From positions 6,433,501 through 6,497,500 of the forward strand of contig JAVTVX010000031.1 in NCBI GenBank assembly GCA_033439265.1: a stretch of DNA of 64,000 bases, in the 5' to 3' direction. This document shows, one piece after another, positions 9,501-64,000 of the stretch (position 1 is the stretch's first letter; every line of letters begins with the position of its first letter). Below the pieces are notes generated by a model. It was given only the letters and a program-made list of their open reading frames with translations. It did no database searches and was not told where the DNA came from. The DNA comes from Dillenia suffruticosa (Eukaryota > Streptophyta > Magnoliopsida > Dilleniales > Dilleniaceae). The translations under genes and the position numbers were made by a program.

Positions 9501-9609
9501 CCTTGATCCTTAGTGACTTTGCTAATGGACAAAAGATTTGAAGTGAGTTGGGGAACAAATAAAGCATTTGATGTTTTTCCAAAAAGTTCAATTTCCCCAA
9601 TTTGCTCAA
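6493..9609 (-). pseudogene. Copia-B1 pol: GAG-pre-integrase, integrase, RT, RNase H (interrupted)
   Basis: The downstream half of the polyprotein. Order seen: GAG-pre-integrase zinc region (LWHKRFGHP ... HCEACILGKETR), integrase core with HSDLWTS, RTDHGGEF and QQNGVAERKNRH (D, D, E), an acidic linker, then reverse transcriptase from [16 protein letters not shown] with the active site YVDDI, and RNase H with CDADWASD, SSAEAEYRAMA and CDNQSAIHIA. The frame differs from gag-protease by one base (overlap 9482-9609). At 8242-8244 the codon CGA found in B2 is TGA in B1, a CpG-type transition that cuts pol between integrase and RT; the frame then continues open to 6493, with its last residues inside the 3' LTR. 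Confidence 0.9.
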
Positions 9610-40954: not shown

Positions 40955-42216
40955 TGGTATCAGAGCAAACTTCGATCCCTTCCTCTTCAAAGTTGGGTGA
41001 CTTTCCACCTTCCATCAACCTTACCCAATTTCAAAATATATCCTCCATTCAATTAAGAGGAGGAAATTATTATCAATGGGCAGCCTTGATGAGAAGGGTG
41101 CTGGAACTTCACAACTTGGAGGGTCACATACTTGATCAACCACTTGAAGAGGTGGATTCTTCCTACAGAGAATGGAAGAAGAGGGACAATCATGTGTTTT
41201 TTCTTCTACTCAATTCCATGGATGAAACACACAAAGCTATGGTGACTTGTGCTCCCAATGCAAAACTAATATGGGACACAATGTTTTCTCTTTATGGCCA
41301 AGAATCTAACCTTGGCAGAATTTTTGAGCTCAAACGACAAATTTCAAACATCAAAAAGGAAGGGAAATCACTTCCTCAATATTTTGGGGAATATACGGAT
41401 ACTTGGAATGAGCTCTCCACTCTCCGTCCGGATTCCATAGATCTCAAAGTCCTCCAAAAGAGGAAAGAAGAAGATAAAATCTTTGGTCTTCTCATGGGTC
41501 TAGATGATTCCTACTCTCTTCTTAGACAAGAAATTCTCCGAATGAAGGAATTTCCTTCATTTGGAGAAGTGCAAAATATGATCCAACGAACGGAAGTTAG
41601 CATGCGTTTGGAAGAAAATTCCAAACTTAGACTTGAAGCTCAAGGTCACATGGCTACCGTTGAAGAGCACATGGCTGCCAAAGCACATCAAGTTCCAAAG
41701 AAAATTGATGTATGCACCCATTGCAAGAAAAGAGGACATACGAAGGAGAAGTGTTGGAACCTTCATCCTCATTTAAAGCCCAAGACCTTCAAACCAAGGG
41801 AGCAACTTTCCGAGCAGCATATTGTACTTCACACCAAGCTTCAAGGACCTACCATGGCTGATTTTGCTGCTCTTCAAAGTCAACTCAATGACATCTCCAA
41901 GAAGTTTCAACAACTTGCTCCCTCCAATGGTAAAAATCAAAACACTTTATCCTCTTTCAATTTCGAAGATTTTCTCATTGATTCGGGAACGGACCATCAT
42001 ATGGTAAGGGATAGAAGAAAAATCAAGCATTTTAAAAAACTCCCTAACCATAAGATAGTCCGTGTTGCCAATGGGCAAGATTTGAAAGTTGAGCAAATTG
42101 GGGAAATTGAACTTTTTGGAAGAACATCAAATGCTTTATTTGTTCCCCAACTCACTTCAAATCTTTTGTCCATTAGCAAAGTCACTAAGGATCAAGGGTG
42201 TAGAGTTGTTTTTTGA
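40954..42216 (+). CDS. Copia-B2 gag and protease
   Basis: 420 residues, the same build as B1: capsid region (YYQWAALMRRVLEL, ESNLGRIFELKRQI), CCHC knuckle CTHCKKRGHTKEKC, protease LIDSGTDHHM (DSG at 41980-41988). The ATG spans the LTR end and the PBS. It ends at TGA directly after TTT; the pol frame lies one base further on (+1), overlapping from 42089. The same end in B1 means the break predates the split of the two copies or is used on purpose. Confidence 0.88.
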   Translation: MVSEQTSIPSSSKLGDFPPSINLTQFQNISSIQLRGGNYYQWAALMRRVLELHNLEGHILDQPLEEVDSSYREWKKRDNHVFFLLLNSMDETHKAMVTCAPNAKLIWDTMFSLYGQESNLGRIFELKRQISNIKKEGKSLPQYFGEYTDTWNELSTLRPDSIDLKVLQKRKEEDKIFGLLMGLDDSYSLLRQEILRMKEFPSFGEVQNMIQRTEVSMRLEENSKLRLEAQGHMATVEEHMAAKAHQVPKKIDVCTHCKKRGHTKEKCWNLHPHLKPKTFKPREQLSEQHIVLHTKLQGPTMADFAALQSQLNDISKKFQQLAPSNGKNQNTLSSFNFEDFLIDSGTDHHMVRDRRKIKHFKKLPNHKIVRVANGQDLKVEQIGEIELFGRTSNALFVPQLTSNLLSISKVTKDQGCRVVF

Positions 42217-45205
42217 CCCAAACACTGTTATTTTTCAGGACCTCAAGTCGAATCAATTGATTGGCAAGGGTTCTAGAAGAGGGGATCTATATTTTTTGGA
42301 TCAAAAGCATCATGCACTCGTAGCTCATATCAAAGAAGATGCATCTCTTTGGCATAAACGTTTTGGGCATCCTAGTCACCAAGCTTTAAAGCGTCTATTT
42401 CCAAGTATTAATATTGAAGATAGACATTGTGAAGCTTGTATTCTGGGAAAGGAAACCCGATCAATGTATCCCAATTCAAAAACAATTTATAAAGATGCTT
42501 TTGATTTAGTTCATTCGGATTTGTGGACTTCACCTATCAAATCTCATTTAGGCTACAAGTATTTCATTACTTTTGCAGACCAAAAAACTAGGTACACTTG
42601 GGTCTACCTTTTGAATACCAAAGATCAAGCTTTTGAAGCCTTTAAAAGCTATGAGAGATATGTGACCAAACTTTACAATGCTAACATTAAAATTCTAAGG
42701 ACGGACCATGGTGGAGAATTCACTAGTTTGACATTTGAAAACTATCTTAGAGAGAATGGCATTATACATCAAATGTCTTGTGTGTACACACCTCAACAAA
42801 ATGGGGTGGCCGAAAGGAAAAATAGGCACATATTAGAAATAACTAGAGCTATGATGTTTCATGCAAATGTGCCTAAGAAATTTTGGTGTGATGGAATAAA
42901 AACCGCTGTCCACCTAATAAACCTTATCCCATCTCAAGTCCTGGATGGCAAGTCACCCTTAGAAGCCCTACTAGATAGAAAACCTAAGATATCTCATCTT
43001 AGAACATTCGGTTGTGTATGTTACATTCATATTCCAGCACACATGAGGGATAAGTTAGATCATAAAGGTAGAAAGTGCATATTTTTGGGGTATGCTTCCT
43101 TTGAAAAGGGGTATAGATGTTATGACCCTAAAACTAACCAAACATACACATCTAAGGATGTGATATTTGTGGAGAATGAGTCCTTTTTTGTAGATAATGA
43201 AGAACATCAATCATCAGAAGAAGAGAGCACTCCAAGCACGTGGAATTTCTTACTTCTCCCGAATCAATCATCTCCACCAATTGCAGAAGGAATCTCCCAA
43301 GAGACTAATGAGCAATCTCAAAATAATGAAGAAGAAGGATCAAACTCCATAGAAGAGGAGGCAGCCCACACTTCAGGGGGAGATCAAGAAACCGAAGAGG
43401 AAGAATCTGAGCATGTAGAGGGAGATTTGGATGCACCACCTCCTCACCTTAGGCGATCCACGAGGCTTAGGGTTCCCCGTTCGGAATGGATTAACCGTAG
43501 AGTTTACTATAACTCCAAGGTAACATCACATCCGATTTCTAATTATTATACCATCTCACATGTTTCTTTGAGCCACCAAAATTTTTTGAGTGGCATAGAT
43601 AAAGAACAGGAGTCTAGGACATATGATGAAGCATCCAAGGACCCAAGGTGGAGAAAGGCAATGAAGGAAGAACTAGATGCATTGACCAAGAACGGTACAT
43701 GGGAAGTCACCTCTCTTCCAAAGAGCAAGCGAGCCGTCGGATGCAAATGGGTATACAAAATCAAATATAAAAGTGATGGATCAATTGAAAGGTTTAAGGC
43801 AAGACTTGTGGCTAAAGGATTCACTCAAGCATATGGGATAGATTACAAAGAGACATACGCACCCGTTGCCAAAATGAATACAATTAGGGTCTTGATGTCT
43901 CTTGCGGTGAACCATGGATGGAGCATGTTTCAAATGGATGTAGCAAACGCGTTCCTTCAAGGAGATCTCGAAGAAGAAGTGTACATGCAACTTCCTCAAG
44001 GGTTCCAACAACAAGGAGGAAACGTGTGCAAACTACGCAAGGCTCTCTACGGGCTGAAGCAATCCCCAAGGGCATGGTATGCAAAATTAAGTCATGCTTT
44101 CCTTAGTAGTGGATTTGTTAAATGCCATAGCGACTCTTCTGTTTTCATTAGAAAAAACAATGATAAAATAGTGATAGCCTTAGTTTACGTAGATGATATC
44201 ATCATTACTGGAAATGACATGCATTTAATAGATATAGTTAGAAATTTCTTGAGTTCTAGGTTTGAAATTAAAGATTTAGGGAGACTAAAATATTTCCTAG
44301 GAATTGAGTTAGCCTATTGTAATAATGGGTTAATTCTATCCCAAAGGAAATATGCACTTGATCTTTTGCAGGAAACAGGAAAGCTAGGAGGAAAGCCAGC
44401 TTGTAGCCCTATTGTCACCACTGGACCTCTAGTAGATGATGAGGAGCCACTTGAGGACATAGAGAGATATCAAAGACTTGTAGGACGACTGATCTACCTC
44501 ACCATCACTAGGCCAGACATAGCCTTTGCCGTGAGCCAAATTAGTCAACATATGCATTCTCCAAAGATGGGTCATTGGAGAGCAGTTGAGCGCATCCTTC
44601 ACTACATCAAGAAATCACCAGGACTAGGTATTTGGATGAAGAACAATGGAAGCTCCCAAATTGAAGGCTTTTGCGATGCAGATTGGGCGAGCGATTCAAA
44701 GGATAGAAGATCTACCGCCGGGTACTGCATGTTCGTAGGAGGCAACTTGGTAGCATGGAAGAACAAAAAACAACATGTGGTGTCAAGATCGAGTGCAGAA
44801 GCTGAGTATAGAGCAATGGCGTCAGCAGCCAGTGAGATTGTATGGTTGAAGGCTCTTGTAGAGGAATTAGGGTTCAATGTTTCTACACCAATCAACTTGC
44901 ATTGTGACAATCAATCGGCAATTCATATTGCATCCAATCCGGTCTTCCATGAAAGGACTAAACACATAGAAGTTGATTGTCACTTCATTCGACAAAAGGT
45001 GGAAGAAAAGCTTATAGCCACTCCCTACATCAAAGGAAAAGAGCAACTAGCTAATATCTTCACAAAAGGGGGAACTGCAATGCATCTTCAAGAAATCATG
45101 AACAAGTTGGGCACTATCGATATCTACGCACCCAACTTGAGGGGGAGTGTTGAAAAGAATGATAACTTAACCCATCTTCATCACCAACCAAGTGCATCTA
45201 CTTAG
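42089..45205 (+). CDS. Copia-B2 integrase-RT-RNase H frame
   Basis: The real coding part probably begins near 42215 (FDPNTVIFQDL); codons before that are overlap in the other frame. Domains: GAG-pre-integrase (LWHKRFGHPS, HCEACILGKETR), integrase (HSDLWTS, RTDHGGEF, QQNGVAERKNRH), acidic linker, RT ([26 protein letters not shown]), RNase H (CDADWASD, SSAEAEYRAMA, CDNQSAIHIA). Ends 58 bases inside the 3' LTR. No stop interrupts it. Near the end the usual ADIFTK reads ANIFTK. It needs a +1 frame change to be made as Gag-Pol. Confidence 0.9.
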   Translation: MSKLGKLNFLEEHQMLYLFPNSLQIFCPLAKSLRIKGVELFFDPNTVIFQDLKSNQLIGKGSRRGDLYFLDQKHHALVAHIKEDASLWHKRFGHPSHQALKRLFPSINIEDRHCEACILGKETRSMYPNSKTIYKDAFDLVHSDLWTSPIKSHLGYKYFITFADQKTRYTWVYLLNTKDQAFEAFKSYERYVTKLYNANIKILRTDHGGEFTSLTFENYLRENGIIHQMSCVYTPQQNGVAERKNRHILEITRAMMFHANVPKKFWCDGIKTAVHLINLIPSQVLDGKSPLEALLDRKPKISHLRTFGCVCYIHIPAHMRDKLDHKGRKCIFLGYASFEKGYRCYDPKTNQTYTSKDVIFVENESFFVDNEEHQSSEEESTPSTWNFLLLPNQSSPPIAEGISQETNEQSQNNEEEGSNSIEEEAAHTSGGDQETEEEESEHVEGDLDAPPPHLRRSTRLRVPRSEWINRRVYYNSKVTSHPISNYYTISHVSLSHQNFLSGIDKEQESRTYDEASKDPRWRKAMKEELDALTKNGTWEVTSLPKSKRAVGCKWVYKIKYKSDGSIERFKARLVAKGFTQAYGIDYKETYAPVAKMNTIRVLMSLAVNHGWSMFQMDVANAFLQGDLEEEVYMQLPQGFQQQGGNVCKLRKALYGLKQSPRAWYAKLSHAFLSSGFVKCHSDSSVFIRKNNDKIVIALVYVDDIIITGNDMHLIDIVRNFLSSRFEIKDLGRLKYFLGIELAYCNNGLILSQRKYALDLLQETGKLGGKPACSPIVTTGPLVDDEEPLEDIERYQRLVGRLIYLTITRPDIAFAVSQISQHMHSPKMGHWRAVERILHYIKKSPGLGIWMKNNGSSQIEGFCDADWASDSKDRRSTAGYCMFVGGNLVAWKNKKQHVVSRSSAEAEYRAMASAASEIVWLKALVEELGFNVSTPINLHCDNQSAIHIASNPVFHERTKHIEVDCHFIRQKVEEKLIATPYIKGKEQLANIFTKGGTAMHLQEIMNKLGTIDIYAPNLRGSVEKNDNLTHLHHQPSAST

Positions 45206-45596
45206 AAGTCCAAAAATCAGCATGCATTGTCCAGCAAGCATGGCCCATTTGGGCAGCCTAAACCAACCCAAAATACATTCAAAAATAGGCCCAAGGAAGC
45301 CCAAAAGTTTGGAGAAAAGTCTAGGAAGCAAACGCAAATAGCTAGGGGCAGTTTGGGCAGCATATATTTCAACAGTAAAAAAACTAGCTGTTGGAATTCC
45401 TTGGGGTTTGAGCTCCAACGGGAATATCACTTTCTACTGACTATTTTTCCTTTTTCTCTATAAATAGAGCCTCATTGTATCTCCAAAAACTATGAGAAAA
45501 ATGCTCTCAAATCTGTCCATGTATGCTCTCATTCTTCTTCAATAAAATTCAGAAGTATTCTTCATTTCTTGTGCTCTATTTTTTGATATTTCAACA
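45148..45596 (+). repeat. Copia-B2 3' LTR
   Basis: 449 bp, differing from the 5' LTR at AAACGCAAAT, ACAGTAAAAA, CCAACGGGAA and TTTTTCCTTT. Followed by CTATT. Confidence 0.93.
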
Positions 45597-47249: not shown

Positions 47250-47257
47250 TATAAATA
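47250..47257 (+). promoter_or_regulatory. C1 TATA box
   Basis: TATAAATA following a CT-rich stretch, about 75 bases downstream of the palindromes. It is the expected core promoter for genomic RNA starting around 47280. Confidence 0.7.
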
Positions 47258-47386
47258 GGGCAGCTAGTTGCTTTTAAAAGGTATGAAAAAAATGCCTTCA
47301 ACCTCTTGTATGCTCTCTTTGAAACATCAATAAAGTACTTGAAGTTCTTATTCATTTCTCATTGCTTGCTTCTTTGGAATTTCATC

Positions 47387-50300
47387 ATGGTATCAGAGCA
47401 GGCATTCATTCCTTCCTCATCTAACCTTGGTAATCCACCACCACAAATTAGCACCTCAATGTTCACTTCCACTCTTTTAGATGCTTCAAATTACAACGCA
47501 TGGCAAGACACCATCAAGAGGTCTCTAAACTTCTTCAATCTCGAAAACCACATATTTGAAGACCCTCTTGATGATGCTGATCCGTCTTACAAAGCATGGA
47601 AAAAGAGAGATGATCAAGTGGTGGTGCTCTTACAAATGTCTTTAGACAAAACCCACAAAGCAATGGTCACTTGTATTCCCAATGCCAAAACTTTGTGGGA
47701 TCAAATGCATGCTCTTTATGCTCAAGAAACCAACACCGGTAGAGTATTCGAATTGAAAAAGAAAATCTTCTACATTCAAAAAGGAGGAAAGACCCTACCC
47801 GAATATTTTGGGGAATATAGGGATCTTTGGAATGAGCTTAATGTTTTGAGGCCTCCAACCTCAAATCTCAAAACCATCCTTCAAAGGAATGATGAAGACA
47901 TGACCTTTGGTCTCCTAATGGGTCTTGGAGAAGAGTATGCACCTATACGTCAAGAAATTCTTAGAATGAAGATTTTTCCTTCATTCCAAGAAGTTCAATT
48001 CATGGTGCAAAGAGCTGAAACAAGCATGAAGCTTGAAGAATCATCCAAGCCCAAAACCGAAGCTCAAGCATTCAAATCTGTCCAAGAAGAGCATCCAGCC
48101 AACAAAGCTCAAAATTTCACCAAAAGAGATTTTTGCTCCCATTGTAAGAAACCTGGTCATAGAAAGGAGAAATGTTGGCATCTCCATCCCCATTTGCGGC
48201 CAAAATACAACAAAAGGGAAGGTGACCAAATGGCAAATGTCCAACATGTTTCTCAAGTTGCTGCCCTAGAAAGCAGAATGGAGGAAATGCAAAAGGAGAT
48301 GAAAAAGCTCGTTGGCCAGATTACTTTGCATTCTGGTAATCTCTTAAATACATCTCATTCATGGCTTATTGATTCTGGTTGTGATAATCATATGGTAAAA
48401 GATAAGAGCAAAATTAAAAGACTCATTCCTCTCACTGATTCTAGGATTGTTAAGGTAGCTAATGGTGAGAAATTAAGAGTTGATCATCTAGGTGAAATTG
48501 AGTTATTTGGCAAGAAAACTAAAGCTCTATATGTGCCTAAATTTAATTCTAATCTTTTATCCATTGGAAAGATAACCAAAGAACAAAATTGCAAAGTTAC
48601 ATTTGATCCTAATGAAGTTGTTTTTCAGGACCTCAAAACGAATCATTTGATTGGCAAGGGGTCTAGGAGGCACAACCTATACTACTTGGATCAAGAAAAC
48701 GGAGCTTTTGCTGCCCAAAGTCAAATGCATTCATTATGGCATGCTCGTCTAGGTCATCTTGGGGACTTAGCTTTGAAACGTCTATTTTCAAATCTAGTAG
48801 TAGAAAATAGGCATTGCAAAGCTTGTGTTCTTGGAAAACAAACTAGAGTGTATTATCCCATTTCAAATACTATATATGAGAATGCATTTGAACTTGTTCA
48901 TTCTGATGTTTGGACCTCACCCATAGCATCTCATAATGGTTTTAAATACTTTGTGACATTTATTGATCACAAAACTAGATATACTTGGGTATACCTATTG
49001 GTAACCAAATCTGAGGTTTTTGAAGCCCTTAAGAGCTATTATAGATATGTCACCAAACAATTCAATGCCAACATCAAAATCATTAGGTCTGACCATGGGG
49101 GGGAGTATACTAGTCATGCATTCGAAAACTTCTTAGATGAAAAGGGGATCATGCACCAAAAATCATGTGTCTACACTCCACAACAAAATGGAGTTGCTGA
49201 AAGGAAAAATAGGCACTTGTTAGAAACAGCTAGGGCCATGATGTTTCATTCTAATGTGCCTAAAAAATTTTGGAGTGAGGCAATAAAAACCGCTACCCAT
49301 CTCATTAATCTTATGCCCACTCAAGTTCTAGGAGGTAAATCCCCATTAGAGCTACTCTTAGGAAGAAAACCTAATATCTCTCATCTTAGAGTCTTTGGAT
49401 GCTTATGCTATGTCCATGTACCTGAAAATTTCAGAAACAAGTTAGAGGAAAGGGGGAGAAAATGTGTGTTCTTAGGATACTCAACATTTGAAAAAGGATA
49501 TAAATGTTATGATCCACTAACCAAAAAACTATACACATCCAAGGATGTGATATTTGTAGAAAGAGAATCTTATTTTTCAGGAAAAGAAGATCAAGATCAA
49601 GATGGAAAAGGAGAAGCTCAAGATCTATGGAACATTATTCTCCCAAGTATCAATCATCCCTCTCATCCGAATATTGAACAAGAACCAGCTCCTAATGTTC
49701 ATGAAGATCCGGCTCAAGAAGATCCCTCACCATCTCATTCTGATCAAGAAACCATTCAAGAACAAGGGGGAGATGATTCGGAGCAAGAGCTGGCCATAGA
49801 ACAAGAGGAACAAATCATAGATGAACCACCTCTTCCTCTTCGTAGATCAACAAGGCTTAGGCTTCCTCCCTCCGAATGGATCAACAAAAGAGTCTTCTAT
49901 AACTCTAAAGTAACTTCTCATCCCATTTCCAAATATTATTCAATTGCTAATACTTCTTGCAGCCATCAAAGATTCATTCGGAACATAGATCTTCATGAAG
50001 AGCCAAGATCTTTTGAAGAAGCTAAAAACCAACCTCAGTGGGTGCAAGCTATGAAGGATGAGTTGGAAGCTTTAGCAAAAAATGGAACATGGGAAATAAC
50101 ATCACTTCCAAAAGGGAAAAAAGCCGTAGGGTGCAAGTGGGTCTACAAAATCAAACACAAAAGTGATGGGAGTCTTGACAAATACAAGGCAAGATTAGTT
50201 GCCAAGGGTTTTACTCAAGCTTATGGAGTAGACTACAAGGAAACATTTGCTCCCGTGGCAAAAATGAATACCATTCGTGTACTCTTATCCCTTGCTGCCA

Positions 50301-51559
50301 ACTACTCTCTACCTCTATTTCAAATGGATGTTGCAAATGCCTTTCTTCAAGGGGACTTAGAAGAAGAGGTGTATATGGAGGTTCCTCCGGGTTTCTCTCA
50401 TCAAGACAACAAAGTTTGCAAATTAAAGAAAGCCATCTATGGACTTAAACAATCACCAAGAGCTTGGTATGCCAAACTTAGTTCTACTCTTCTTGATCAT
50501 GACTTTAAGAAATGCACTAGTGACTCATCTCTTTTTGTTAAGAAACTAAAAGATAAATTCATTATAGTCCTAGTATATGTAGATGATATAATCATAACCG
50601 GAAATGACTTGAACTTAATTAATCAAGTTAGGAAATTTCTCCAAACAAAGTTTGAGATTAAGGACTTAGGGAAACTAAAGTACTTTCTAGGGATAGAACT
50701 TGCCTATTGTCCAAATGGGTTTGTTCTATCACAAAGAAAGTATGTGCTTGATCTTTTGCAGGAAACTGGAAAGTTAGGTGTCAAGCCCGCATGTAGTCCG
50801 ATCAGCACTTCTTGTGGCCTTAAAGATGAAGACGAAGAGTTTGAGGATGAACAGAGATACCAAAGGCTTGTAGGGAGACTAATCTATCTCACTATAACAA
50901 GGCCCGATATCTCCTTTGCTGTGGGACAAGTTAGCCAACATATGCACAAGCCAAAAAGAAAGCATTGGAGAGCCACCGAAAGAATACTTCACTACCTAAA
51001 GGGCACACCCGGCATGGGAATTTGGATGAAGAAAAATTGCAGCTCACAAATCATAGGGTATTGTGATGCGGATTGGGCCGGAGATTCTGAAGATAGAAGA
51101 TCAACTACAGGATATTGCATGTTTGTTGGAGGAAATCTAGTAGCTTGGAAAAGCAAAAAACAACATGTGGTGTCAAGATCAAGTGCTGAAGCGGAGTATA
51201 GAGCAATGGCAGCCGCAACAAGTGAAATAGTTTGGTTAAGGGCTCTAATTGAAGAGCTAGGGTTCATAGTTCCAACTCCAATTCAACTCTATTGTGACAA
51301 CCAATCGGCAATTCATATAGCCTCAAATCCGGTGTTTCATGAAAGAACAAAACATATTGAGGTAGATTGTCACTTTGTGAGACAAAAGATTGAAGACAAG
51401 CTCATCATTCCTAGCTTTACAAGAAGTGATCTTCAAGTTGCTGACATCTTTACAAAACCGGGAACCGCCAATCACATTCACAAGAATATGGGCAAGTTAG
51501 GTGTTATAGACATATACACACCCAACTTGAGGGGGAGTGTTGAAATAAAGCACAATTAG
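47387..51559 (+). CDS. Copia-C1 gag-pol polyprotein, intact
   Basis: 1390 residues. The start is the ATG made by the last A of the LTR and the first bases of the PBS (MVSEQ); the open frame extends 27 codons further up but has no ATG there and lies inside the LTR. Domains: Gag capsid region (residues ~25-230), CCHC knuckle CSHCKKPGHRKEKC (~245), protease WLIDSGCDNHM (~325), GAG-pre-integrase (LWHARLGHLG, HCKACVLGKQTR), integrase with HSDVWTS, RSDHGGEYT and QQNGVAERKNRH, acidic linker, RT with [16 protein letters not shown] and YVDDIIITGN, RNase H with YCDADWAGD, SSAEAEYRAMA and CDNQSAIHIA. The last seven codons lie in the 3' LTR. No break or lost catalytic residue is seen. Confidence 0.95.
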   Translation: MVSEQAFIPSSSNLGNPPPQISTSMFTSTLLDASNYNAWQDTIKRSLNFFNLENHIFEDPLDDADPSYKAWKKRDDQVVVLLQMSLDKTHKAMVTCIPNAKTLWDQMHALYAQETNTGRVFELKKKIFYIQKGGKTLPEYFGEYRDLWNELNVLRPPTSNLKTILQRNDEDMTFGLLMGLGEEYAPIRQEILRMKIFPSFQEVQFMVQRAETSMKLEESSKPKTEAQAFKSVQEEHPANKAQNFTKRDFCSHCKKPGHRKEKCWHLHPHLRPKYNKREGDQMANVQHVSQVAALESRMEEMQKEMKKLVGQITLHSGNLLNTSHSWLIDSGCDNHMVKDKSKIKRLIPLTDSRIVKVANGEKLRVDHLGEIELFGKKTKALYVPKFNSNLLSIGKITKEQNCKVTFDPNEVVFQDLKTNHLIGKGSRRHNLYYLDQENGAFAAQSQMHSLWHARLGHLGDLALKRLFSNLVVENRHCKACVLGKQTRVYYPISNTIYENAFELVHSDVWTSPIASHNGFKYFVTFIDHKTRYTWVYLLVTKSEVFEALKSYYRYVTKQFNANIKIIRSDHGGEYTSHAFENFLDEKGIMHQKSCVYTPQQNGVAERKNRHLLETARAMMFHSNVPKKFWSEAIKTATHLINLMPTQVLGGKSPLELLLGRKPNISHLRVFGCLCYVHVPENFRNKLEERGRKCVFLGYSTFEKGYKCYDPLTKKLYTSKDVIFVERESYFSGKEDQDQDGKGEAQDLWNIILPSINHPSHPNIEQEPAPNVHEDPAQEDPSPSHSDQETIQEQGGDDSEQELAIEQEEQIIDEPPLPLRRSTRLRLPPSEWINKRVFYNSKVTSHPISKYYSIANTSCSHQRFIRNIDLHEEPRSFEEAKNQPQWVQAMKDELEALAKNGTWEITSLPKGKKAVGCKWVYKIKHKSDGSLDKYKARLVAKGFTQAYGVDYKETFAPVAKMNTIRVLLSLAANYSLPLFQMDVANAFLQGDLEEEVYMEVPPGFSHQDNKVCKLKKAIYGLKQSPRAWYAKLSSTLLDHDFKKCTSDSSLFVKKLKDKFIIVLVYVDDIIITGNDLNLINQVRKFLQTKFEIKDLGKLKYFLGIELAYCPNGFVLSQRKYVLDLLQETGKLGVKPACSPISTSCGLKDEDEEFEDEQRYQRLVGRLIYLTITRPDISFAVGQVSQHMHKPKRKHWRATERILHYLKGTPGMGIWMKKNCSSQIIGYCDADWAGDSEDRRSTTGYCMFVGGNLVAWKSKKQHVVSRSSAEAEYRAMAAATSEIVWLRALIEELGFIVPTPIQLYCDNQSAIHIASNPVFHERTKHIEVDCHFVRQKIEDKLIIPSFTRSDLQVADIFTKPGTANHIHKNMGKLGVIDIYTPNLRGSVEIKHN
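47388..47399 (+). other. C1 primer-binding site
   Basis: TGGTATCAGAGC, complementary to initiator-Met tRNA, abutting the LTR. Confidence 0.9.
51524..51537 (+). other. C1 polypurine tract
   Basis: AACTTGAGGGGGAG directly before the 3' LTR; the same 14 bases precede the 3' LTRs of the A and B elements. It also encodes residues of the polyprotein C-terminus (NLRGS). Confidence 0.85.
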
Positions 51560-53159: not shown

Positions 53160-54096
53160 TTTGCTACAAAGATTCAAAGTAGGCTTGAAGAGTGGTGACG
53201 CGAGAGCTTGCATCAACTAGAGCTTCAACCCGAGGAACAATAGCAAAACCTAAACCTTGCCCTTTAAAGCTAGCACCATCAACACCTGCAAACATGGTCC
53301 CCCTAAGCTTCACCTAGCAGAAAGCTTCCTCAGCCCACTGAAGCTTTGCAAGATCTCCTGTTAGCTATGCCAATGGTCTGCGATCACCTTTACAAACTAC
53401 TCTCCGAGGTCAACTAGCCTTTGTTGTGCTATAATATGAGACTCTTTTACTAGTCCCTCGACAACTTGTGGTCTTGCCTCTTTCTCTCTCACTTCAGCCT
53501 CTAACATCTCATACTCACCAAGAGCCTCGTCACATTGACAAAATGTAGACTCTAGGTTAGCCTTCAGATACTCCATCTATTTACCTTTACCTTTAAAAGT
53601 AGCATTTGTTGCCCTCTTTTCTTTGATTTCTCTCTCCCTTTGGGCCAAAGCAGCACAAACCTAGGACATCTTCTCATCCTGTTGACCCAATTGATGCTTT
53701 AAGTGTCCCACCAACTGATTCCTCTTTAGCCATTGAAATTCAGCCATAGCAGTGACCTACACCGAACGTATTTAATTACACAAACCATAAATGAAACCTT
53801 AAACCAAAGTTCATCCTGAGAGAAAAAATCTACCTAAATTCCAAGAGCTATTAAGGTCTCATCCCCTACTCCATAGACAGACCTTTTAGCTCTAACTAGA
53901 GGCGATAGTAGTCTAGCATGTCGACAAACTTCCTTGCTTCCATAATATCCATGTAGCCGAAGTGATTATACCTAGCGCTTATTGCAAATATGCCTCTTTC
54001 CCTCAAATCCTTCTTATTGTCGAAAGACCAAACCAAAATAGGAGGAGAAAGGACCATTTGGTCGAGCATAACTCCATTGCCCTTTCTGATATTCAA
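53160..54096 (-). pseudogene. Decayed coiled-coil protein of unknown family
   Basis: The minus strand reads RGIFAISARYNHFGYMDIMEA and RKFVDMLDYYRL (53896-54096), then after stops EFQWLKRNQLVGHLKHQLG (about 53740), AALAQREREIKEKRAT, and MEYLKANLESTFCQCDEAL with EYEMLEAEVREKEARPQVVE and LVKESHIIAQQRLVDLGE, rich in Glu, Lys, Arg and Leu as in a coiled coil, and further down FKGQGLGFAIVPRVEALVDA in another frame. At least four stops and frame changes. Sense-strand coherence over ~900 bases argues for a former gene or element protein; I do not recognise which. Confidence 0.4.
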
Positions 54097-54108
54097 CTAG
54101 AGGGGGTG

Positions 54109-54564
54109 TGTTAAAAATAAGGGAGAAGATGAAGATAAGTCTCAAGGTATTCAACTTGAAAATATGATAATGTCATAAACATTGGGCCTTTTATTTTTTA
54201 ATGTTCAGAATTTGGCAACATATTTATGACCCAAAATACATTCAAAAACAAGCCCAATGAAGCCCAAAAGTATGGAGAAAAGTCTAAGAGGTAAACCCAA
54301 ATAGCTAGGGGCAGTTTGGGCAATGTATATTCCAACAGTCCAAAAACTAGCTGTTGGAATTCCTTGGGGTTTGAGCCCCAACGGGAATATTGACTTTGTT
54401 CTCTCTCTACTGGCTATTTTTCTCCCTTTGCCTATAAATAGAGCTATTGCTCTCCTTGTAAAATTAAGAGGAAGATAATCTCTCTTCCTTTGTATCATTC
54501 TACTACATCAATAAAAACCAGAAGTTTATTAGATTTCTCTCTCTTCTTAGTCAAAAATCCAACA
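54109..54564 (+). repeat. Copia-A3 5' LTR
   Basis: TGTTAAAAATAAGG to AATCCAACA, with TGGGC/GCCCA motifs, a CCCCAACGGGAAT box, CTATAAATAGAG and AATAAA. Confidence 0.95.
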
Positions 54565-57500
54565 TGGTATCAGAGCAAACATCGACTCCGGGGTTGGGAA
54601 ATTCTCTTCCTCAAATCTCTTCCTTTCAAATCCAACTTTTCTCCCAAATTATTCTAAGCTCAACCAATTACTTCCAATGGGCTAGTCATATCAGAAGATC
54701 TCTCAATGGAGCAAAACTTCTGTCTTTCATTACAAAAGATCCTATGGATCGGCTAGACCCACGATTTGATGAATGGAAGGAGCTGGATGATCAAGTGTTC
54801 CTATTGCTAACAAGCTCCATGGATCAAGCACACAAAAATATGGTAATGTGCTGTCCGAGTTCCAAATCCTTATGGGAGCAAATGTATGGGTTATATGGTC
54901 AGGAATCAAACTTGAGCAGAATATTTGAAATACAAAAAAGGATTGCGGCCATCCAAATGGAGGAGAAATCAATTACACAATTGTTCGGAGAACACGAGGA
55001 CTTGTGGAATGAGCTTAACACATTGAGACCTCTCACAAGTGATATAAAAGTGCTGCAAAAGAGACAAGATGAAGACAAGGTGTTTTCATTGCTCTCATCA
55101 CTCAATGAGTCATTTGTACAACTTCGACAGGAAATTCTTCGAATGAAAGAATTTCCATCATACCAAGAGACTCGATTTATGATTCAAAGAGCTGCAGCTT
55201 CTCAAAGGCTTGAAGAAAGCAATCAGTCCAAAAGTGAAGTTCATGGGTTCTCCACAAAGCAGAATGAGCAAGCTGCAAATAAGGCTCATCAGGGAATAAA
55301 AAAGGTGTGTTCTCATTGCAAAAAGTTGGGACATACCAAGGATGGTTGCTGGTTTCTTCATCCTAACCTTAAACCTGAGTTCATCAAGAAAAAAGAGCAA
55401 GAGAGGAGGGAGCAAAATGCTCAACCAGCTGCAAACAAAGCAAATCTGACATCTCAAAAATTAGGAAAATCCTCCTCAGGTACTTGCTCTAACTCATCTG
55501 TTACTTCTTCAAAATGGTTGATAGATTCAGGTTGTGATCAACATATGGTCAAAGATAAGCAAAATTTTCAGAATCTTGAACCTCTCCTAGAACCTAAAAT
55601 GGTTAAAGTTGCGAATGGACATAATTTCAAAATTAAGCAAATTGGGGATGTTGAAATATTTGGAAGAAAATCAAAGGCCTTATATGTTCCTCAATTTACC
55701 TCTAATCTTATGTCCATTGGACAAGTCACTAAGGACTTAAATTGCAAAGCTATTTTTGACCCTCATTCTGTTGTTTTTCAGAATTTGGAGACGAATCAAG
55801 TGATTGGTAGTGGTTCTATGCAAGATAACTTGTATTTTTGGAAACAAGATAGTTTTGTATTTTCCGCAATCCGAGAGGAAAGTTACCTCCTTTGGCATGC
55901 TAGATTAGGTCATCCTTCTATGCAAGCTCTGAAATGCCTATTCCCATCAAAAAATTGTAGTGATAGACATTGTGAAGCATGCATTTTTGGAAAGGAAACC
56001 CGAATGTATTATCCTATTTCTGAAACTCAATATAAAAAGCCTTTTGATCTTGTTCACTCGGATGTATGGACTTCACCTATGATATCTAGAAGGGGATTTA
56101 AGTATTTTATCTCATTTATAGATCATAAGTCTAGGTATACATGGGTGTATATGCTAAGATCAAAAGACCAAGTTTATGAAGCCTTCAAGTCCTTTTACAA
56201 GTATATTATAAAACAATATGAGGCCAACATTAAAATTCTTAGGACAGATAATGGTGGGGAATATATGAGCACCAATTTCAAAAATTTCATTGAGGAGAAT
56301 GGAATTATTCATCAAACTAGTTGTCCCTACACTCCCCAACAAAATGGAGTTGCCGAACGCAAAAATAGACATCTCCTAGAAATAGCTAGAACTATCATGT
56401 TCTTTGCTAATATGCCTAAGCGTTTTTGGAGTGATGCGGTTAGTACCGCAGCTCATTTAATAAATCGTCTTCCAACTAGAGTTCTCCATGGAAAATCTCC
56501 ATTAGAGTTGCTTAGAAAAGACAAACCAAACCTCTCTCACCATAGAGTTTTTGGGTGTATTTGTTATGTTCATATTCCTAGGCAGTTTAGAGATAAGTTA
56601 GATATCAAAGGAAGGAAATGTGTTTTTATTGGGTACGCTTCATTCCAAAAAGGATATATTTGTTTTGAACCTGACTCTAACAAGGTATACACATTGAAAG
56701 ATGTGATATTTGTAGAAAATGAATTCTTTTTTGCAGGAGAAAAAAATGAAGAAAATTCATCAAGCAATGACTTGCGAATCTTCTGCGATGTTCCCATAAA
56801 TCCTCCTCTGGTTCCTCAAGAATCCAATGAAGAAAATTCACTTTCAGGGGGAGAAAATGAAGAGGGAGGAGTGGATGAGTCTGAAAATGAAGAGAACTCT
56901 TCCGAAGAAAGAGAAGAAGGCGAGGGATTACCTACCTTAGGAGAATCCGGAGACGAAACTAGACTGCCCTCTCTGCTGGCTCCTCCACTTCGACGTTCCA
57001 CCAGATTGAGGCTTCCTCCCTCAGAGTGGATCAACAGAAGAGTTTATTACAATTCTAAGGTAACTCACTATCCTATTTCAAATTACTATTGTGTATCTAA
57101 TACTTCCTCAAGCCATCAAGGGTTCTTGAGTGGCATTGACTCATCACAGGAACCTAAGGATTTTGATGAGGCAAATATCAAACCCGAATGGAGACAAGCT
57201 ATGCTTGAAGAACTAGATGCATTGAATAAAAATGGGACGTGGGAGATTACTACTCTCCCTAAGGGAAGAAAGGCTGTCGGGTGTAAATGGGTGTTCAAAA
57301 TCAAGTATAAAAGTGATGGATCCATTGAACGCTACAAGGCAAGACTTGTAGCCAAAGGATTCACACAAACTTATGGAGAAGACTACACTGAGACTTTTGC
57401 CCCTGTTGCCAAAATGAAAACGATAAGGGTTTTGATGTCAATTGCAACCAATGGAGAATGGCCAATGTATCAAATGGACGTGAAGAATGCTTTCCTTCAA

Positions 57501-58760
57501 GGGGACTTAGACGAAGAAATCTACATGCAAATTCCCCAAGGGCTAGATGAGGATTCAAACATCAAGGTGTGTCGTCTTAAAAAAGCAATCTATGGGTTAA
57601 AACAATCTCCTCGTGCCTGGTATGCAAGATTAAGTTCAGCACTTCTTGGTAATAACTTTAAGAAATCCATTAGTGATTCCTCCATGTTTACTAAAGTTAA
57701 CAATGAAGAAATCACTATTGTTCTTATTTATGTAGATGATATAGTTATTACAGGAAGTGATATGAATGGTATTGATCAAGTTAGAAATTTCCTTAAATCT
57801 ACTTTTGAGATTAAAGATTTGGGAAAACTAAAGTATTTCTTAGGAATAGAGCTTGCCTATTCTCATAAGGGGCTAGTTCTATGCCAAAGGAAATATGTAC
57901 TTGACCTTTTGCAGGAAACTGGAAAGGTAGGAGCTAAACCTGCAGCAACTCCTATATCCATAGCAGAACGAGCACAAGGTGATGAAGAAATGTTCCAGGA
58001 TATTCCTAGATATCAAAGACTTGTGGGGAGGCTCATCTACCTCACCATTACAAGACCAGATATCACCTATGCCGTCAGCTTAATCAGTCAACGGATGCAT
58101 GCTCCAAGGATTCAAGATTGGAAGGCAGCAGAAAGAATTCTCAAGTATTTAAAAAGCTCACCAGGAAGGGGAATTCTTATGAAAAACAACCACAGCATGG
58201 AGATTTATGGCTACTGTGATGCAGATTGGGCTGGGGATGTCACGGACAGGAGATCCACCACCGGCTACTGCATGTTCGTGGGAGGAAATCTTGTAACATG
58301 GAAAAGCAAGAAACAATCTGTTGTATCCAGATCAAGCGCTGAGGCTGAATACAGAGCAATGGCAGCGGCTACAAGCGAAATAGTTTGGCTAAAGGCATTA
58401 CTTGAGGAGATGGGATTTCCTACTATCGCTCCTATTCTTCTACATTACGATAATCAAGCAGCTCTTCATATCGCAGCCAATCCAATATTTCATGAAAGAA
58501 CGAAACACATTGAGGTTGATTGTCATTTTGTTCGAGAAAAATTAGAAAACAAGACAATTTCAACCTCATATGTTAGAAGTGAAGACCAGCTAGCTGACAT
58601 TTTCACTAAGGCAACAACTGAGAAACATCTTCAGCACATCCTTAGCAAGTTAGGGTCCATAGACATCTATGCACCTAACTTGAGGGGGAGTGTTAAAAAT
58701 AAGCGAGAAGATGAAGATAAGTCTCAAGGTATTCAACTTGAAAATATGATAATGTCATAA
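54564..58760 (+). CDS. Copia-A3 gag-pol polyprotein, intact frame
   Basis: 1398 residues from the LTR/PBS-spanning ATG. Gag capsid region (FQWASHIRRSLNGAKL, ESNLSRIFEIQKRI), CCHC knuckle CSHCKKLGHTKDGC (~residue 251), protease WLIDSGCDQHM (~318), GAG-pre-integrase (LLWHARLGHPS, HCEACIFGKETR), integrase (HSDVWTS, RTDNGGEY, QQNGVAERKNRH), acidic linker, RT ([26 protein letters not shown]), RNase H (YCDADWAGD, SSAEAEYRAMA). Substitutions against A1/A2: DQHM for DHHM, LSHHRVF for LSHLRVF, and HYDNQA for HCDNQA next to a catalytic Asp of RNase H. Whether these harm activity is unknown. The last 23 codons lie in the 3' LTR. Confidence 0.95.
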   Translation: MVSEQTSTPGLGNSLPQISSFQIQLFSQIILSSTNYFQWASHIRRSLNGAKLLSFITKDPMDRLDPRFDEWKELDDQVFLLLTSSMDQAHKNMVMCCPSSKSLWEQMYGLYGQESNLSRIFEIQKRIAAIQMEEKSITQLFGEHEDLWNELNTLRPLTSDIKVLQKRQDEDKVFSLLSSLNESFVQLRQEILRMKEFPSYQETRFMIQRAAASQRLEESNQSKSEVHGFSTKQNEQAANKAHQGIKKVCSHCKKLGHTKDGCWFLHPNLKPEFIKKKEQERREQNAQPAANKANLTSQKLGKSSSGTCSNSSVTSSKWLIDSGCDQHMVKDKQNFQNLEPLLEPKMVKVANGHNFKIKQIGDVEIFGRKSKALYVPQFTSNLMSIGQVTKDLNCKAIFDPHSVVFQNLETNQVIGSGSMQDNLYFWKQDSFVFSAIREESYLLWHARLGHPSMQALKCLFPSKNCSDRHCEACIFGKETRMYYPISETQYKKPFDLVHSDVWTSPMISRRGFKYFISFIDHKSRYTWVYMLRSKDQVYEAFKSFYKYIIKQYEANIKILRTDNGGEYMSTNFKNFIEENGIIHQTSCPYTPQQNGVAERKNRHLLEIARTIMFFANMPKRFWSDAVSTAAHLINRLPTRVLHGKSPLELLRKDKPNLSHHRVFGCICYVHIPRQFRDKLDIKGRKCVFIGYASFQKGYICFEPDSNKVYTLKDVIFVENEFFFAGEKNEENSSSNDLRIFCDVPINPPLVPQESNEENSLSGGENEEGGVDESENEENSSEEREEGEGLPTLGESGDETRLPSLLAPPLRRSTRLRLPPSEWINRRVYYNSKVTHYPISNYYCVSNTSSSHQGFLSGIDSSQEPKDFDEANIKPEWRQAMLEELDALNKNGTWEITTLPKGRKAVGCKWVFKIKYKSDGSIERYKARLVAKGFTQTYGEDYTETFAPVAKMKTIRVLMSIATNGEWPMYQMDVKNAFLQGDLDEEIYMQIPQGLDEDSNIKVCRLKKAIYGLKQSPRAWYARLSSALLGNNFKKSISDSSMFTKVNNEEITIVLIYVDDIVITGSDMNGIDQVRNFLKSTFEIKDLGKLKYFLGIELAYSHKGLVLCQRKYVLDLLQETGKVGAKPAATPISIAERAQGDEEMFQDIPRYQRLVGRLIYLTITRPDITYAVSLISQRMHAPRIQDWKAAERILKYLKSSPGRGILMKNNHSMEIYGYCDADWAGDVTDRRSTTGYCMFVGGNLVTWKSKKQSVVSRSSAEAEYRAMAAATSEIVWLKALLEEMGFPTIAPILLHYDNQAALHIAANPIFHERTKHIEVDCHFVREKLENKTISTSYVRSEDQLADIFTKATTEKHLQHILSKLGSIDIYAPNLRGSVKNKREDEDKSQGIQLENMIMS

Positions 58761-59146
58761 ACATTGGGCCTTTTATTTTTTAATGTTTAGAATTTGGCAA
58801 CATATTTATGACCCAAAATACATTCAAAAACAAGCCCAATGAAGCCCAAAAGTATGGAGAAAAGTCTAAGAGGTAAACCCAAATAGCTAGGGGCAGTTTG
58901 GGCAATGTATATTCCAACAGTCCAAAAACTAGCTGTTGGAATTCCTTGGGGTTTGAGCCCCAACGGGAATATTGACTTTGTTCTCTCTCTACTGGTTATT
59001 TTTCTCCCTTTGCCTATAAATAGAGCTATTGCTCTCCTTGTAAAATTAAGAGGAAGATAATCTCTCTTCCTTTGTATCATTCTACTACATCAATAAAAAC
59101 CAGAAGTTTATTAGATTTCTCTCTCTTCTTAGTCAAAAATCCAACA
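58691..59146 (+). repeat. Copia-A3 3' LTR
   Basis: 456 bp after the PPT, ending AATCCAACA, followed by GGGTG. Confidence 0.95.
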
Positions 59147-59151
59147 GGGTG

Positions 59152-59929: not shown

Positions 59930-60586
59930 AGGTCGACAAGACTAAATAAACATCAACCTAAATTCAAAAATTCGGTATTATGTTCTTGACTAATCAAGTC
60001 AACAAGAGAGTATAGAGGTCGACAAGGCAATGTACCAAATTAAATAGGTAGACATGGAGACTTAAATTGGTCGATATGTTCTGATATGTTAACATGATTC
60101 CCATGGACATCGACATGTCTTTACTTTTGAATCAATATCTAGGTTGACAAGTACTATTTTCACATTGACACAATCCTGTGTATATATAAAATTTATGGAC
60201 TTATTCTAAAAAATTCATCGATGTGTGATTTCAAGGGGTTAACTGACATCAGTCAACATGTTCAGTATATACATTGATATACCACTATACTGATAAAAAT
60301 GGGTGGATCTATCTTCTAAAATTGGTCAATGTGTTAGGTGTATCAACAAGGTCAATGTTCACTTACTGCGTGTAATATCTAAGCAACACCTTACATCTGG
60401 TCGACATATTCCAGGTTCACATTAATATGTTTTTGTGCTAACTTAAAATTGGTGGACATGTCTTTTAAAATAGGTCAATGTGTTCTTCATGTCGATAAAA
60501 TCAACAAGCAAGTCGTTGTGTATTTTTTAAGAGACAAAGGAATCAGGTCGAGTAGTTATCGGGCATGTCCATCTCTTTAAACTTTT
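59930..60586. repeat. Degenerate GTCGACA/GTCAACAAG-rich repeat
   Basis: Irregular repeats of GGTCGACATG, GGTCGACAAG, GTCAACAAG and GGTCAATGTG through the stretch, similar in character to 5860-6101 plus 11193-11990. It ends where the B3 LTR starts. Confidence 0.45.
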
Positions 60587-61035
60587 TGTTGAAAAGAAGG
60601 AGAACTTAACCCATCTTCATCACCAACCAAGTGCATCTACTTAGAAGTCCAAAAATCAGAATGCATTGTCCAGCAAGCATGGCCCATTTGGGCAGCCTAA
60701 ACCAACCCAAAATACATTCAAAAATAGGCCCAAGGAAGCCCAAAAGTTTGGAGAAAAGTCTAGGAAGCAAACCCAAATAGCTAAGGGCAGTTTGGGCAGC
60801 ATATATTTCAACAGTCAAAAAACTAGCTGTTGGAATTCCTTGGGGTTTGAGCTCCAACGGGAATATCACTTTCTACTGGCTATTTTTCCCTTTTCTCTAT
60901 AAATAGAGCCTCATTGTATCTCCAAAAACTATGAGAAAAATGCTCTCAAATCTGTCCATGTATGCTCTCATTCTTCTTCAATAAAATTCAGAAGTATTCT
61001 TCATTTCTTGTGCTCTATTTTTTGATATTTCAACA
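60587..61035 (+). repeat. Copia-B3 5' LTR, plus
   Basis: 449 bp B-type LTR, TATA box CTCTATAAATAGAG at 60895-60908, pointing into the inverted repeat. Confidence 0.93.
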
Positions 61036-61719
61036 TGGTATCAGAGCAAACTTCGATCCCTTCCTCTTCAAGGTTGGGTGACCTTCCACCTTCCATCAAC
61101 CTTACCCAATTTCAAAATATATCCTCCATTCAATTAAGAGGAGGAAATTATTATCAATGGGCAGCCTTGATGAGAAGGGTGCTGGAACTTCACAACTTGG
61201 AGGGTCACATACTTGATCAACCACTTGAAGAGGTGGATTCTTCCTACAGAGAATGGAAGAAGAGGGACAATCATGTGTTTTTTCTTCTACTCAATTCCAT
61301 GGATGAAACACACAAAGCTATGGTGACTTGTGCTCCCAATGCAAAACTAATATGGGACACAATGTTTTCTCTTTATGGCCAAGAATCTAACCTTGGCAGA
61401 ATTTTTGAGCTCAAACGACAAATTTCAAACATCAAAAAGGAAGGGAAATCACTTCCTCAATATTTTGGGGAATATACGGATACTTGGAATGAGCTCTCCA
61501 CTCTCCGTCCGGATTCCATAGATCTCAAAGTCCTCCAAAAGAGGAAAGAAGAAGATAAAATCTTTGGTCTTCTCATGGGTCTAGATGATTCCTACTCTCT
61601 TCTTAGACAAGAAATTCTCGAATGAAGGAATTTCCTTCATTTGGAGAAGTGCAAAATATGATCCAACGAACGGAAGTTAGCATGCGTTTGGAAGAAAATT
61701 CCAAACTTAGACTTGAAGC
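61035..61719 (+). pseudogene. Copia-B3 gag, left (sense) arm, frameshifted
   Basis: The same Gag N-terminal region as B1/B2 (MVSEQTSIPSS, ESNLGRIFELKRQI). Near 61619 one C is missing (ATTCTCGAATG against ATTCTCCGAATG), which ends the frame at 61625. Match to B2 stops at 61719 within the codons for KLRLEA, before the zinc knuckle. Confidence 0.88.
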
Positions 61720-61730
61720 AAGTTCCTTTC

Positions 61731-62764
61731 CCCGAATCAATGAGAAAATCTTCGAAATTGAAAGAGGATAAAGTGTTTTGATTTTTACCATTGGAGGGAG
61801 CAAGTTGTTGAAACTTCTTGGAGATGTCATTGAGTTGACTTTGAAGAGCAGCAAAATCAGCCATGGTAGGTCCTTGAAGCTTGGTGTGAAGTACATTATG
61901 CTGCTCGGAAAGTTGCTCCCTTGGTTTGAAGGTCTTGGGCTTTAAATGAGGATGAAGGTTCCAACACTTCTCCTTCGTATGTCCTCTTTTCTTGCAATTG
62001 GTGCATACATCAATTTTCTTTGGAACTTGATGTGCTTTGGCAGCCATGTGCTCTTCAACGGTAGCCATGTGACCTTGAGCTTCAAGTCTAAGTTTGGAAT
62101 TTTCTTCCAAACGCATGCTAACTTCCGTTCGTTGAATCATATTTTGCACTTCTCCAAATGAAGGAAATTCCTTCATTCGGAGAATTTCTTGTCTAAGAAG
62201 AGAGTAGGAATCATCTAGACCCATGAGAAGACCAAAGATTTTATCTTCTTCTTTCCTCTTTTGGAGGACTTTGAGATCTATGGAATCCGGACGGAGAGTG
62301 GAGAGCTCATTCCAAGTATCCGTATATTCCCCAAAATATTGAGGAAGTGATTTCCCTTCCTTTTTGATGTTTGAAATTTGTCGTTTGAGCTCAAAAATTC
62401 TGCCAAGGTTAGATTCTTGGCCATAAAGAGAAAACATTGTGTCCCATATTAGTTTTGCATTGGGAGCACAAGTCACCATAGCTTTGTGTGTTTCATCCAT
62501 GGAATTGAGTAAAAGAAAAAACACATGATTGTCCCTCTTCTTCCATTCTCTGTAGGAAGAATCCACCTCTTCAAGTGGTTGATCAAGTATGTGACCCTCC
62601 AAGTTGTGAAGTTCCAGCACCCTTCTCATCAAGGCTGCCCATTGATAATAATTTCCTCCTCTTAATTGAATGGAGGATATATTTTGAAATTGGGTAAGGT
62701 TGATGGAAGGTGGAAGGTCACCCAACCTTGAAGAGGAAGGGATCGAAGTTTGCTCTGATACCAT
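61731..62764 (-). pseudogene. Copia-B3 gag with protease start, inverted (antisense) arm
   Basis: On the minus strand an open Gag frame from the LTR/PBS ATG at 62764 through the CCHC knuckle (here CTNCKKRGHTKEKC) to the protease D-S-G, where B sequence ends at 61731. The open frame runs on to 61637 through junction bases into the antisense of the left arm. Gag itself is unbroken; protease is cut right after its active-site triad. Confidence 0.85.
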
Positions 62765-63160
62765 GTTGAAATATCAAAAAATAGAGCACAAGAAATGAAG
62801 CTCTATTTATAGAGATTTGAGAGCATTTTTCTCATAGTTTTTGGAGATACAATGAGGCTCTATTTATAGAGAAAAGGGAAAAATAGCCAGTAGAAAGTGA
62901 TATTCCCGTTGTAGCTCAAACCCCAAGGAATTCCAACAGCTAGTTTTTTGACTGTTGAAATATGTGCTGCCCAAACTGCCCCTAGCTTTTTGGGTTTGCT
63001 TCCTAGACTTTTCTCCAAACTTTTGGGCTTCCTTGGGCCTATTTTTGAATGTATTTTGGGTTGGTTTAGGCTGCCCAAATGGGCCATGCTTGCTGGACAA
63101 TGCATGCTGATTTTTGGACTTCTAAGTAGATGCACTTGGTTGGTGATGAAGATGGGTTAA
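62764..63160 (-). repeat. Copia-B3 inverted LTR, altered and truncated
   Basis: Minus-oriented B LTR. Its first ~22 bases (TGTTGAAAAGAAGG...) are missing at 63160, and in R/U5 a stretch is replaced by a second copy of CTCTATTTATAGAG (62801-62814), the LTR's own TATA segment, whose normal copy is at 62858-62871. The promoter faces the left arm. Confidence 0.85.
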
Positions 63161-63163
63161 TAT

Positions 63164-64000
63164 CACATCTAAGGATGTGATATTTGTGGAGAATGAGTCC
63201 TTTTTTGTAGATAATGAAGAACATCAATCATCAGAAGAAGAGAGCACTCCAAGCACGTGGAATTTCTTACTTCTCCCGAATCAATCATCTCCACCAATTG
63301 CAGAAGGAATCTCCCAAGAGACTAATGAGCAATCTCAAAATAATGAAGAAGAAGGATCAAACTCCATAGAAGAGGAGGCAGCCCACACTTCAGGGGGAGA
63401 TCAAGAAACCGAAGAGGAAGAATCCGAGCATGTAGAGGGAGATTTGGATGCACCACCTCCTCACCTTAGGCGATCCACGAGGCTTAGGGTTCCCCGTTCG
63501 GAATGGATTAACCGTAGAGTTTACTATAACTCCAAGGTAACATCACATCCGATTTCTAATTATTATACCATCTCACATGTTTCTTTGAGCCACCAAAATT
63601 ATTTGAGTGGCATAGATAAAGAACAGGAACCTAGGACATATGATGAAGCATCCAAGGACCCAAGGTGGAGAAAGGCAATGAAGGAAGAACTAGATGCATT
63701 GACCAAGAATGGTACATGGGAAGTCACCTCTCTTCCAAAGAGTAAGCGAGCCGTCGGATGCAAATGGGTATACAAAATCAAATATAAAAGTGATGGATCA
63801 ATTGAAAGGTTTAAGGCAAGACTTGTGGCTAAAGGATTCACTCAAGCATGGGATAGATTACAAAGAGACATACGCACCCGTTGCCAAAATGAATACAATT
63901 AGGGTCTTGATGTCTCTTGCGGTGAACCATGGATGGAGCATGTTTCAAATGGATGTAGCAAACGCGTTCCTTCAAGGAGATCTCGAAGAAGAAGTGTACA
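63164..64000 (+). pseudogene. Copia-B3 pol (linker and RT), frameshifted, partial
   Basis: It starts at the [14 protein letters not shown] linker, continues through the acidic region and [11 protein letters not shown] into RT ([16 protein letters not shown]). Near 63848 two bases present in B2 (GCATATGGG) are absent (GCATGGG), ending the frame at 63902. B-type sequence continues out of frame to the end of the window (NAFLQGDLEEEVY region). Confidence 0.88.

Follow-up and report, generated by a model that had tools for sequence, protein, structure and literature searches.

A reversed LTR-gag fragment inside a Ty1/copia element forms a potential hairpin-RNA locus in Dillenia suffruticosa

How plants first recognize a new retrotransposon family is an open question, and hairpins made from nested or rearranged copies have been proposed as a trigger (PMC11624286). 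The locus described here is a defined, natural, single-locus case of such a proposed trigger, and it raises the question of whether the structure is real, how it arose, and whether it could silence the family to which it belongs. It lies in a 64,000-nt stretch (C31:6433501-6497500 of the 596 Mb, 37-contig assembled genome), which we call the window; the window contains no N. The original prediction described the locus as an inverted repeat of LTR and gag sequence that might act as a hairpin-RNA silencer.

The host of the structure, S, is an element of a Ty1/copia family (family B), an assignment based on the copia gag, the RVT_2 domain, LTRs with TG...CA ends, a 5-bp TSD, and a PBS after the LTR. 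The PBS is presumably of the tRNA-Met type. Two full-length copies of family B are found in the window: B1 (6102-11192, minus strand; TSD CCTAG) and B2 (40506-45596, plus strand; TSD CTATT). S begins with a complete 5' LTR of 449 nt (TGTTG...CAACA; 60587-61035, plus strand), which carries a TATA-like box from 60895 and is preceded by the TSD CTTTT (60582-60586), whose partner follows the 3' LTR, beyond the window. The 5' part of gag (61036-61719, plus strand) starts with the PBS TGGTATCAGAGC and contains the Retrotran_gag_2 domain (PF14223). An antisense piece (which we call A; 61731-63165) follows, and the pol of S resumes at 63164 with the start of RVT_2, continuing on the plus strand to the window edge at 64000 and on to 64201. 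Pfam searches detected the copia gag domain (PF14223) on both arms of the structure and the start of RVT_2 (PF07727) after the insert. In B2 coordinates, 60587-61719 corresponds to 40506-41639 (sense LTR and gag), 61731-63165 to 41987-40518 (antisense gag/protease into LTR), and the sequence from 63164 to 43147 onward (sense pol), and S has lost 1507 nt (B2 41640-43146). The gag of S has a private 1-nt deletion near 61619, with its reading frame stopping at 61625, and the pol frame is broken by a 2-nt deletion relative to B1 and B2.

Beyond the window, S is interrupted after 64201 by an element, C (64202-69272; TSD TAGTT), whose LTRs differ at 1 of 459 positions, and its 3' LTR is interrupted from 70426 by another, D (TSD CCCAA), whose LTRs differ at 3 of 442 aligned bases. 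The sequence places both insertions later than that of S. We call C and D copia-like solely because their interiors match the B2 interior at ~67-73%. S ends at 75641 (window numbering), and the next five bases, CTTTT, repeat those that stand immediately before 60587; S thus has both of its ends and a TSD. Between its two LTRs, 8/449 positions differ, compared with 2/449 in B1 and 4/449 in B2.

A is a 1.43-kb antisense piece of a second B copy. Its inner part (61731-62763, minus strand) comprises gag, a zinc-knuckle region (identified by eye), and the start of protease, and the remainder (62764-63165, minus strand) is an LTR that is complete at its inner end but short by 12-18 nt at its outer end, with a TATA-like box from 62858. 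Within this LTR, 48 nt that include AATAAA have given way to a 15-nt duplicate of the TATA box (62800-62814). The junction with the gag of S, J1, contains 11 nt of filler (61720-61730). A match of 10 nt links the filler to B pol in the orientation of A, but it is weak, being reached by 105 of 2000 shuffles. At the other junction, J2 (63164), A and the resumed pol overlap by 2 nt. A thus has a single LTR with an incomplete outer end and no TSD, rather than the two complete LTRs and TSD of an intact insertion. We also considered a mobile hairpin subfamily, or an LTR subfamily carrying the 48-to-15-nt swap. Three pattern searches of the 596 Mb genome, with up to three mismatches allowed, found J1, J2, and the swap at one place each, and the composite of S and A is therefore not a mobile subfamily.

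On the minus strand, an open reading frame at 61637-62773 would encode a 378-aa truncated Gag that includes ~31 chimeric residues past the junction. A truncated Gag might in principle interfere with capsids, by analogy with Ty1 p22. A scan of viral contigs with the gag of A found no relative, a plasmid search gave no match, and the window contains no Rfam match at the gathering threshold and no tRNA.

The sense (60606-61719) and antisense (62079-63160) arms contain a block of 621 nt with 100% complementarity and two further blocks, of 348 and 101 nt, both at 99%, which bears out the original prediction of near-identical inverted arms of ~1.1 kb. Aligned as a whole, the arms are 96% identical with 34 gap columns; once the swap block and the outermost columns of the alignment are set aside, 7 substitutions among 1057 sites and a single 1-nt indel separate them. 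This complementarity cannot be due to chance. The window contains five inverted pairs whose arms are 100 nt or longer and lie no more than 8 kb apart, and three of them belong to this structure; the other two are 162-nt LTR matches at 90-92%. The limits of the arms need some revision. The sense arm does consist of LTR and gag, but 60606 marks the end of the match to A, whereas the LTR of S begins at 60587. The antisense arm is likewise present, but rather than ending at 63160, A extends to about 63165, with a gap of 2 nt, and shares 2 nt with the resumed pol. The distance of 359 nt between the arms is correct, but the intervening sequence is not a separate spacer or loop: most of it (61731-62078) is antisense gag/protease of A, the rest being filler, and its partner in S disappeared with the 1507-nt deletion. 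The LTR TATA boxes do point inward, as had been claimed: the TATA-like CTCTATAAATAGAG starts at 60895 (plus strand), and its reverse complement is at 62858 (minus strand). There are three such boxes in all, including the second copy in the LTR of A from 62800.

Because a piece of the same family lies backwards in S, any RNA that passed through both would fold into a long hairpin. Transcription starts ~30 nt after a TATA box, and we modeled a transcript with an assumed start at 60930 and an end at 62840. The predicted minimum free energy was -1502 kcal/mol, compared with -536 (B2) and -547 (B1) kcal/mol for controls of equal length, and 743 of 879 pairs joined the two arms, in line with the expected duplex of 0.7-0.8 kb. 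The arms share 644 21-mers; exact copies of all 644 are present in B1 and of 612 in B2. For the 629 shared 24-mers, the counts are 629 and 594. In the neighboring element at 54095-59150, we found one shared 21-mer and 0/629 24-mers. The exact match to the full-length copies B1 and B2 that the original prediction expected is thus supported. The locus is real as assembled and, in the fold model, hairpin competent.

The two arms have different relatives. The U5-gag portion of A agrees at 1069/1069 positions with a copy of the family on C8 (11,323,809-11,324,868), and the gag of S, apart from its own 1-nt deletion, shows 0 substitutions relative to the B copies L002 and L004. Position 701 of B is C in S but T in A, and each base recurs in other B copies. 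S and A are, as judged from these bases, two separate B haplotypes, and the C8 identity together with the family polymorphism at 701 indicates that A was not copied from S. When compared with B1 and B2 alone, A and S have private substitutions at the same rate (5/1412 and 13/3583, ~0.36% in both), but this equality was not upheld when A was compared with its best matches among more copies (2 private substitutions in 1413 nt); two of the copies compared, L006 and L020, are B1 itself.

How, then, did a reversed piece of one B copy come to lie in another? The explanation that we regard as probable is that a reversed 5' fragment of B replaced part of S in a break-repair type of event, and that hairpin RNA would be made only when the B promoter is on. 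A 1507-nt stretch of gag-pol would have been lost from S, inserted as a copia B element; double-strand break repair would most likely have captured a 1.43-kb LTR-gag-protease fragment, from B cDNA or genomic DNA, in reverse; and two end-joined junctions would have formed at the captured fragment. The locus shows the host deletion, short filler, and 2-nt overlap of a captured insertion, and a study of plant break repair describes insertions accompanied by deletions, 2-7-bp microhomology, short filler, and one insert of opposite polarity (PMC3289645). The inserts reported there were 80-677 bp, whereas A is a 1.43-kb piece of a retrotransposon.

The lack of LTR-end nucleotides and of a TSD in A fits the capture of a fragment during break repair, but it also fits a nested insertion that was clipped later: a complete B element would have inserted antisense into S and then been trimmed by two deletions. 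A clean antisense self-nest of B does exist at C10 4.82 Mb (L015), which speaks for such a history. Nesting, however, requires two extra deletions (one of the outer LTR end, and one of part of S plus ~3.6 kb of the nested copy), and it has to account for the missing TSD; we consider it a credible but lesser candidate. Break repair and clipped nesting would be told apart solely by the form of the joins. A third route, aberrant reverse transcription between two copackaged B RNAs to yield a rearranged cDNA that integrated as S, would explain the presence of two B haplotypes in one element that has both ends and a TSD. We think it rather unlikely, as an inversion would not be a simple product of template switching and the genome pattern searches found no sister copy of the composite.

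An assembly artifact has to be weighed because the region is rich in repeats and the structure is known here from an assembled contig alone. However, the arms belong to different haplotypes, and the joins, one with filler and the other with a 2-nt overlap, each have a sequence of their own and are not set in shared repeat sequence, so misassembly is very unlikely; the window, moreover, contains no N. Finally, a recent fold-back (snap-back) duplication of the 5' end of S would produce near-identical inverted arms, but it is ruled out for practical purposes by the other B copies that carry the base of A where A differs from S and by the 1069-nt identity with the C8 copy.

Whether the locus acts, or has acted, is a question separate from its origin. 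Under the preferred break-repair reading, with the B promoter on, RNA from the LTR of S would read through R-U5-gag and then into the antisense copy, folding into a duplex of ~0.74 kb, and RNA from the LTR of A would do likewise in the opposite direction. The duplex would be a substrate for Dicer-like enzymes, yielding siRNAs of 21-24 nt with matches in other B copies. Since both arms are driven by the promoter of the target family itself, hairpin RNA would be made only while family B is active, and, the promoter being shared, the locus would shut down once B LTRs were methylated. Such self-silencing of the LTR promoters, which would inactivate the hairpin, counts against the functional part of the explanation, and we expect the locus to be mostly silent today.

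Two mutually exclusive readings of its present state were considered. According to the one toward which the balance tips slightly, the locus is an inert relic, methylated, untranscribed, and inverted by happenstance, and any siRNAs are ordinary Pol IV background. The broken gag and pol frames of S, the two later insertions in it, and the restriction to a single locus in the genome are in keeping with a relic, as is the packing of the listed B copies into a small number of possibly heterochromatic regions on each contig. However, both LTRs have kept their TATA motifs and closely match other copies, and the loss of coding ability is no bar to the formation of an RNA hairpin. According to the other reading, the locus is an active natural silencer, similar to Mu killer (Muk), whose hairpin would repress family B in trans through its siRNAs. 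The predicted duplex is exact, long, and family specific, and precedents are offered by Muk (PMC3440606), the self-nesting of EVD (PMC11624286), and maize 22-nt hairpin siRNAs (PMC11390486). On the other side, any silencing did not prevent the spread of B: the genome has 231 places with the PBS pattern of the family, and of the 42 listed matches to the arm of S, 40 have an identity of 99-100%. In addition, the promoters of the hairpin are its own targets and would be methylated along with the family, a point that the original prediction did not weigh, and the gag siRNAs of EVD arise from ordinary transcripts via RDR6, with no hairpin (PMC11624286). By modeling and analogy, a silencing role for the candidate hairpin is plausible, but we think an active silencer unlikely. 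In a more specific version, which arises because the hairpin shares its LTR promoter with 200-odd relatives, the locus would act as a self-calibrating brake on a copia family that is clustered by region and possibly centromeric. If it were true, the hairpin would be made exactly when the family escapes, would resilence it in trans, and would then switch itself off; we regard this as a long shot.

Architectures of this class are already in print, in reports on antisense self-nesting of EVD (PMC11624286) and Mu killer (PMC3440606). The original prediction named Muk as the model. The analogy is a fair one, as the arms of Muk likewise include TIRA, the promoter region of its target (PMC3440606), but the self-nest of EVD is the closer precedent. 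In Arabidopsis, EVD (ATCOPIA93) was nested antisense in itself in rdr6-EVD #5, and an LTR hairpin or convergent dsRNA was proposed; the authors left siRNA production from the self-nested locus untested (PMC11624286). At both loci, a copia element lies antisense in a member of its own family, the LTR promoters converge, an LTR hairpin could form, and a role in silencing is proposed, and at our locus the host S has its own LTRs and TSD (CTTTT). They differ in that the incoming EVD copy has 5' and 3' LTRs and a TSD, according to the legend, whereas A has one LTR and no TSD; in that the LTRs of EVD lie 2562 and 1942 bp apart, whereas the gag arms of S and A are 359 nt apart; and in that EVD nesting was described in one plant of an experimental line (PMC11624286), whereas S and A are in an assembled genome, at a site that has lost 1.5 kb.

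Like Muk, the S/A structure is a single-locus, partial inverted duplication of the promoter end and 5' coding part of a transposon (~1.3 kb of mudrA in Muk and 1.1 kb here; PMC3440606), and its arms match full-length family members exactly at siRNA length (as counted in B1 and B2). Muk, however, derives from a DNA transposon, lies between the host genes amy4 and acm1, and is a dominant silencer (PMC3440606), whereas the S/A structure is known here from sequence alone and no host gene is known as its driver. In silenced Muk plants, antisense transcripts were described from a promoter inside Muk, and in plants that failed to silence, sense read-through (PMC3440606); even Muk is therefore not settled as a simple long hairpin. 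The maize loci that produce 22-nt hairpin siRNAs, including Tpd1, also have a long natural hairpin RNA as the siRNA precursor, but they are expressed, and the Tpd1 siRNAs are Dcl2 dependent and target a host lipase gene (PMC11390486). Our literature search, in which subscription papers were mostly outside the scope, found nothing on template-switched LTR elements or on long-hairpin plant retrotransposons. Because the arm variants are haplotype specific and each junction was found at one place in the genome, RNA and siRNAs from the S/A locus should be distinguishable from those of the ~230 related places.

We surveyed the neighbors of family B copies at 136 places, merged from 100 listed of the 231 PBS places and 100 listed of 170 gag-pattern places. 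One neighboring pair faced inward within 5 kb (on C10, 4764 bp apart, the clean nest), and the next inward pairs were 7603, 7957, and 9583 bp apart. The corresponding PBS-to-PBS distance for S and A is ~1.7 kb, and C31 was not among the places listed; a tighter inward pair beyond the 136 listed places is possible. The C10 locus (G000:C10:4817501-4827500) consists of one B element inserted whole and antisense into another, and the nest is clean, with both LTRs and a TSD (GGAAC), unlike A. Two hairpins are possible there, one with LTR arms of 402 nt lying 1005 nt apart and one with gag arms of 533 nt lying 597 nt apart, and the same genome thus offers a clean nested comparison for the S/A locus.

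Among 100 listed of the 231 places, B mostly occupied a single narrow region on each contig (for example, C1 8.89-9.09, C2 8.83-9.13, and C20 15.30-15.41 Mb). The listed places were spread more widely on C11, C18, C19, and C24, fell into at least two regions on each of C10, C12, and C15, and included an outlier at C2 1.74 Mb. From this distribution, B could be a centromere-concentrated copia family. In B1 (9482-10753) and B2 (40945-42216), a 423-aa gag-protease frame differs from the pol frame, the open frames overlap by 131 nt, and the interiors of the two copies show no indel relative to each other; frameshifting and a shared frame change are alternative explanations. The elements at 47255-51559 and 54468-58760, unlike B1 and B2, each have one long frame. 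On C15, two B elements lie back to back (L017, G000:C15:20298501-20308000), with inverted arms of 2310 and 768 nt at 99% and promoters facing outward. Farther along the same contig (G000:C15:20563315-20596556), four gag matches occur in mirror order (+,+,-,-) with an equal spacing of 3480 bp on each side, which suggests a palindrome of more than 33 kb, either real or an assembly artifact.
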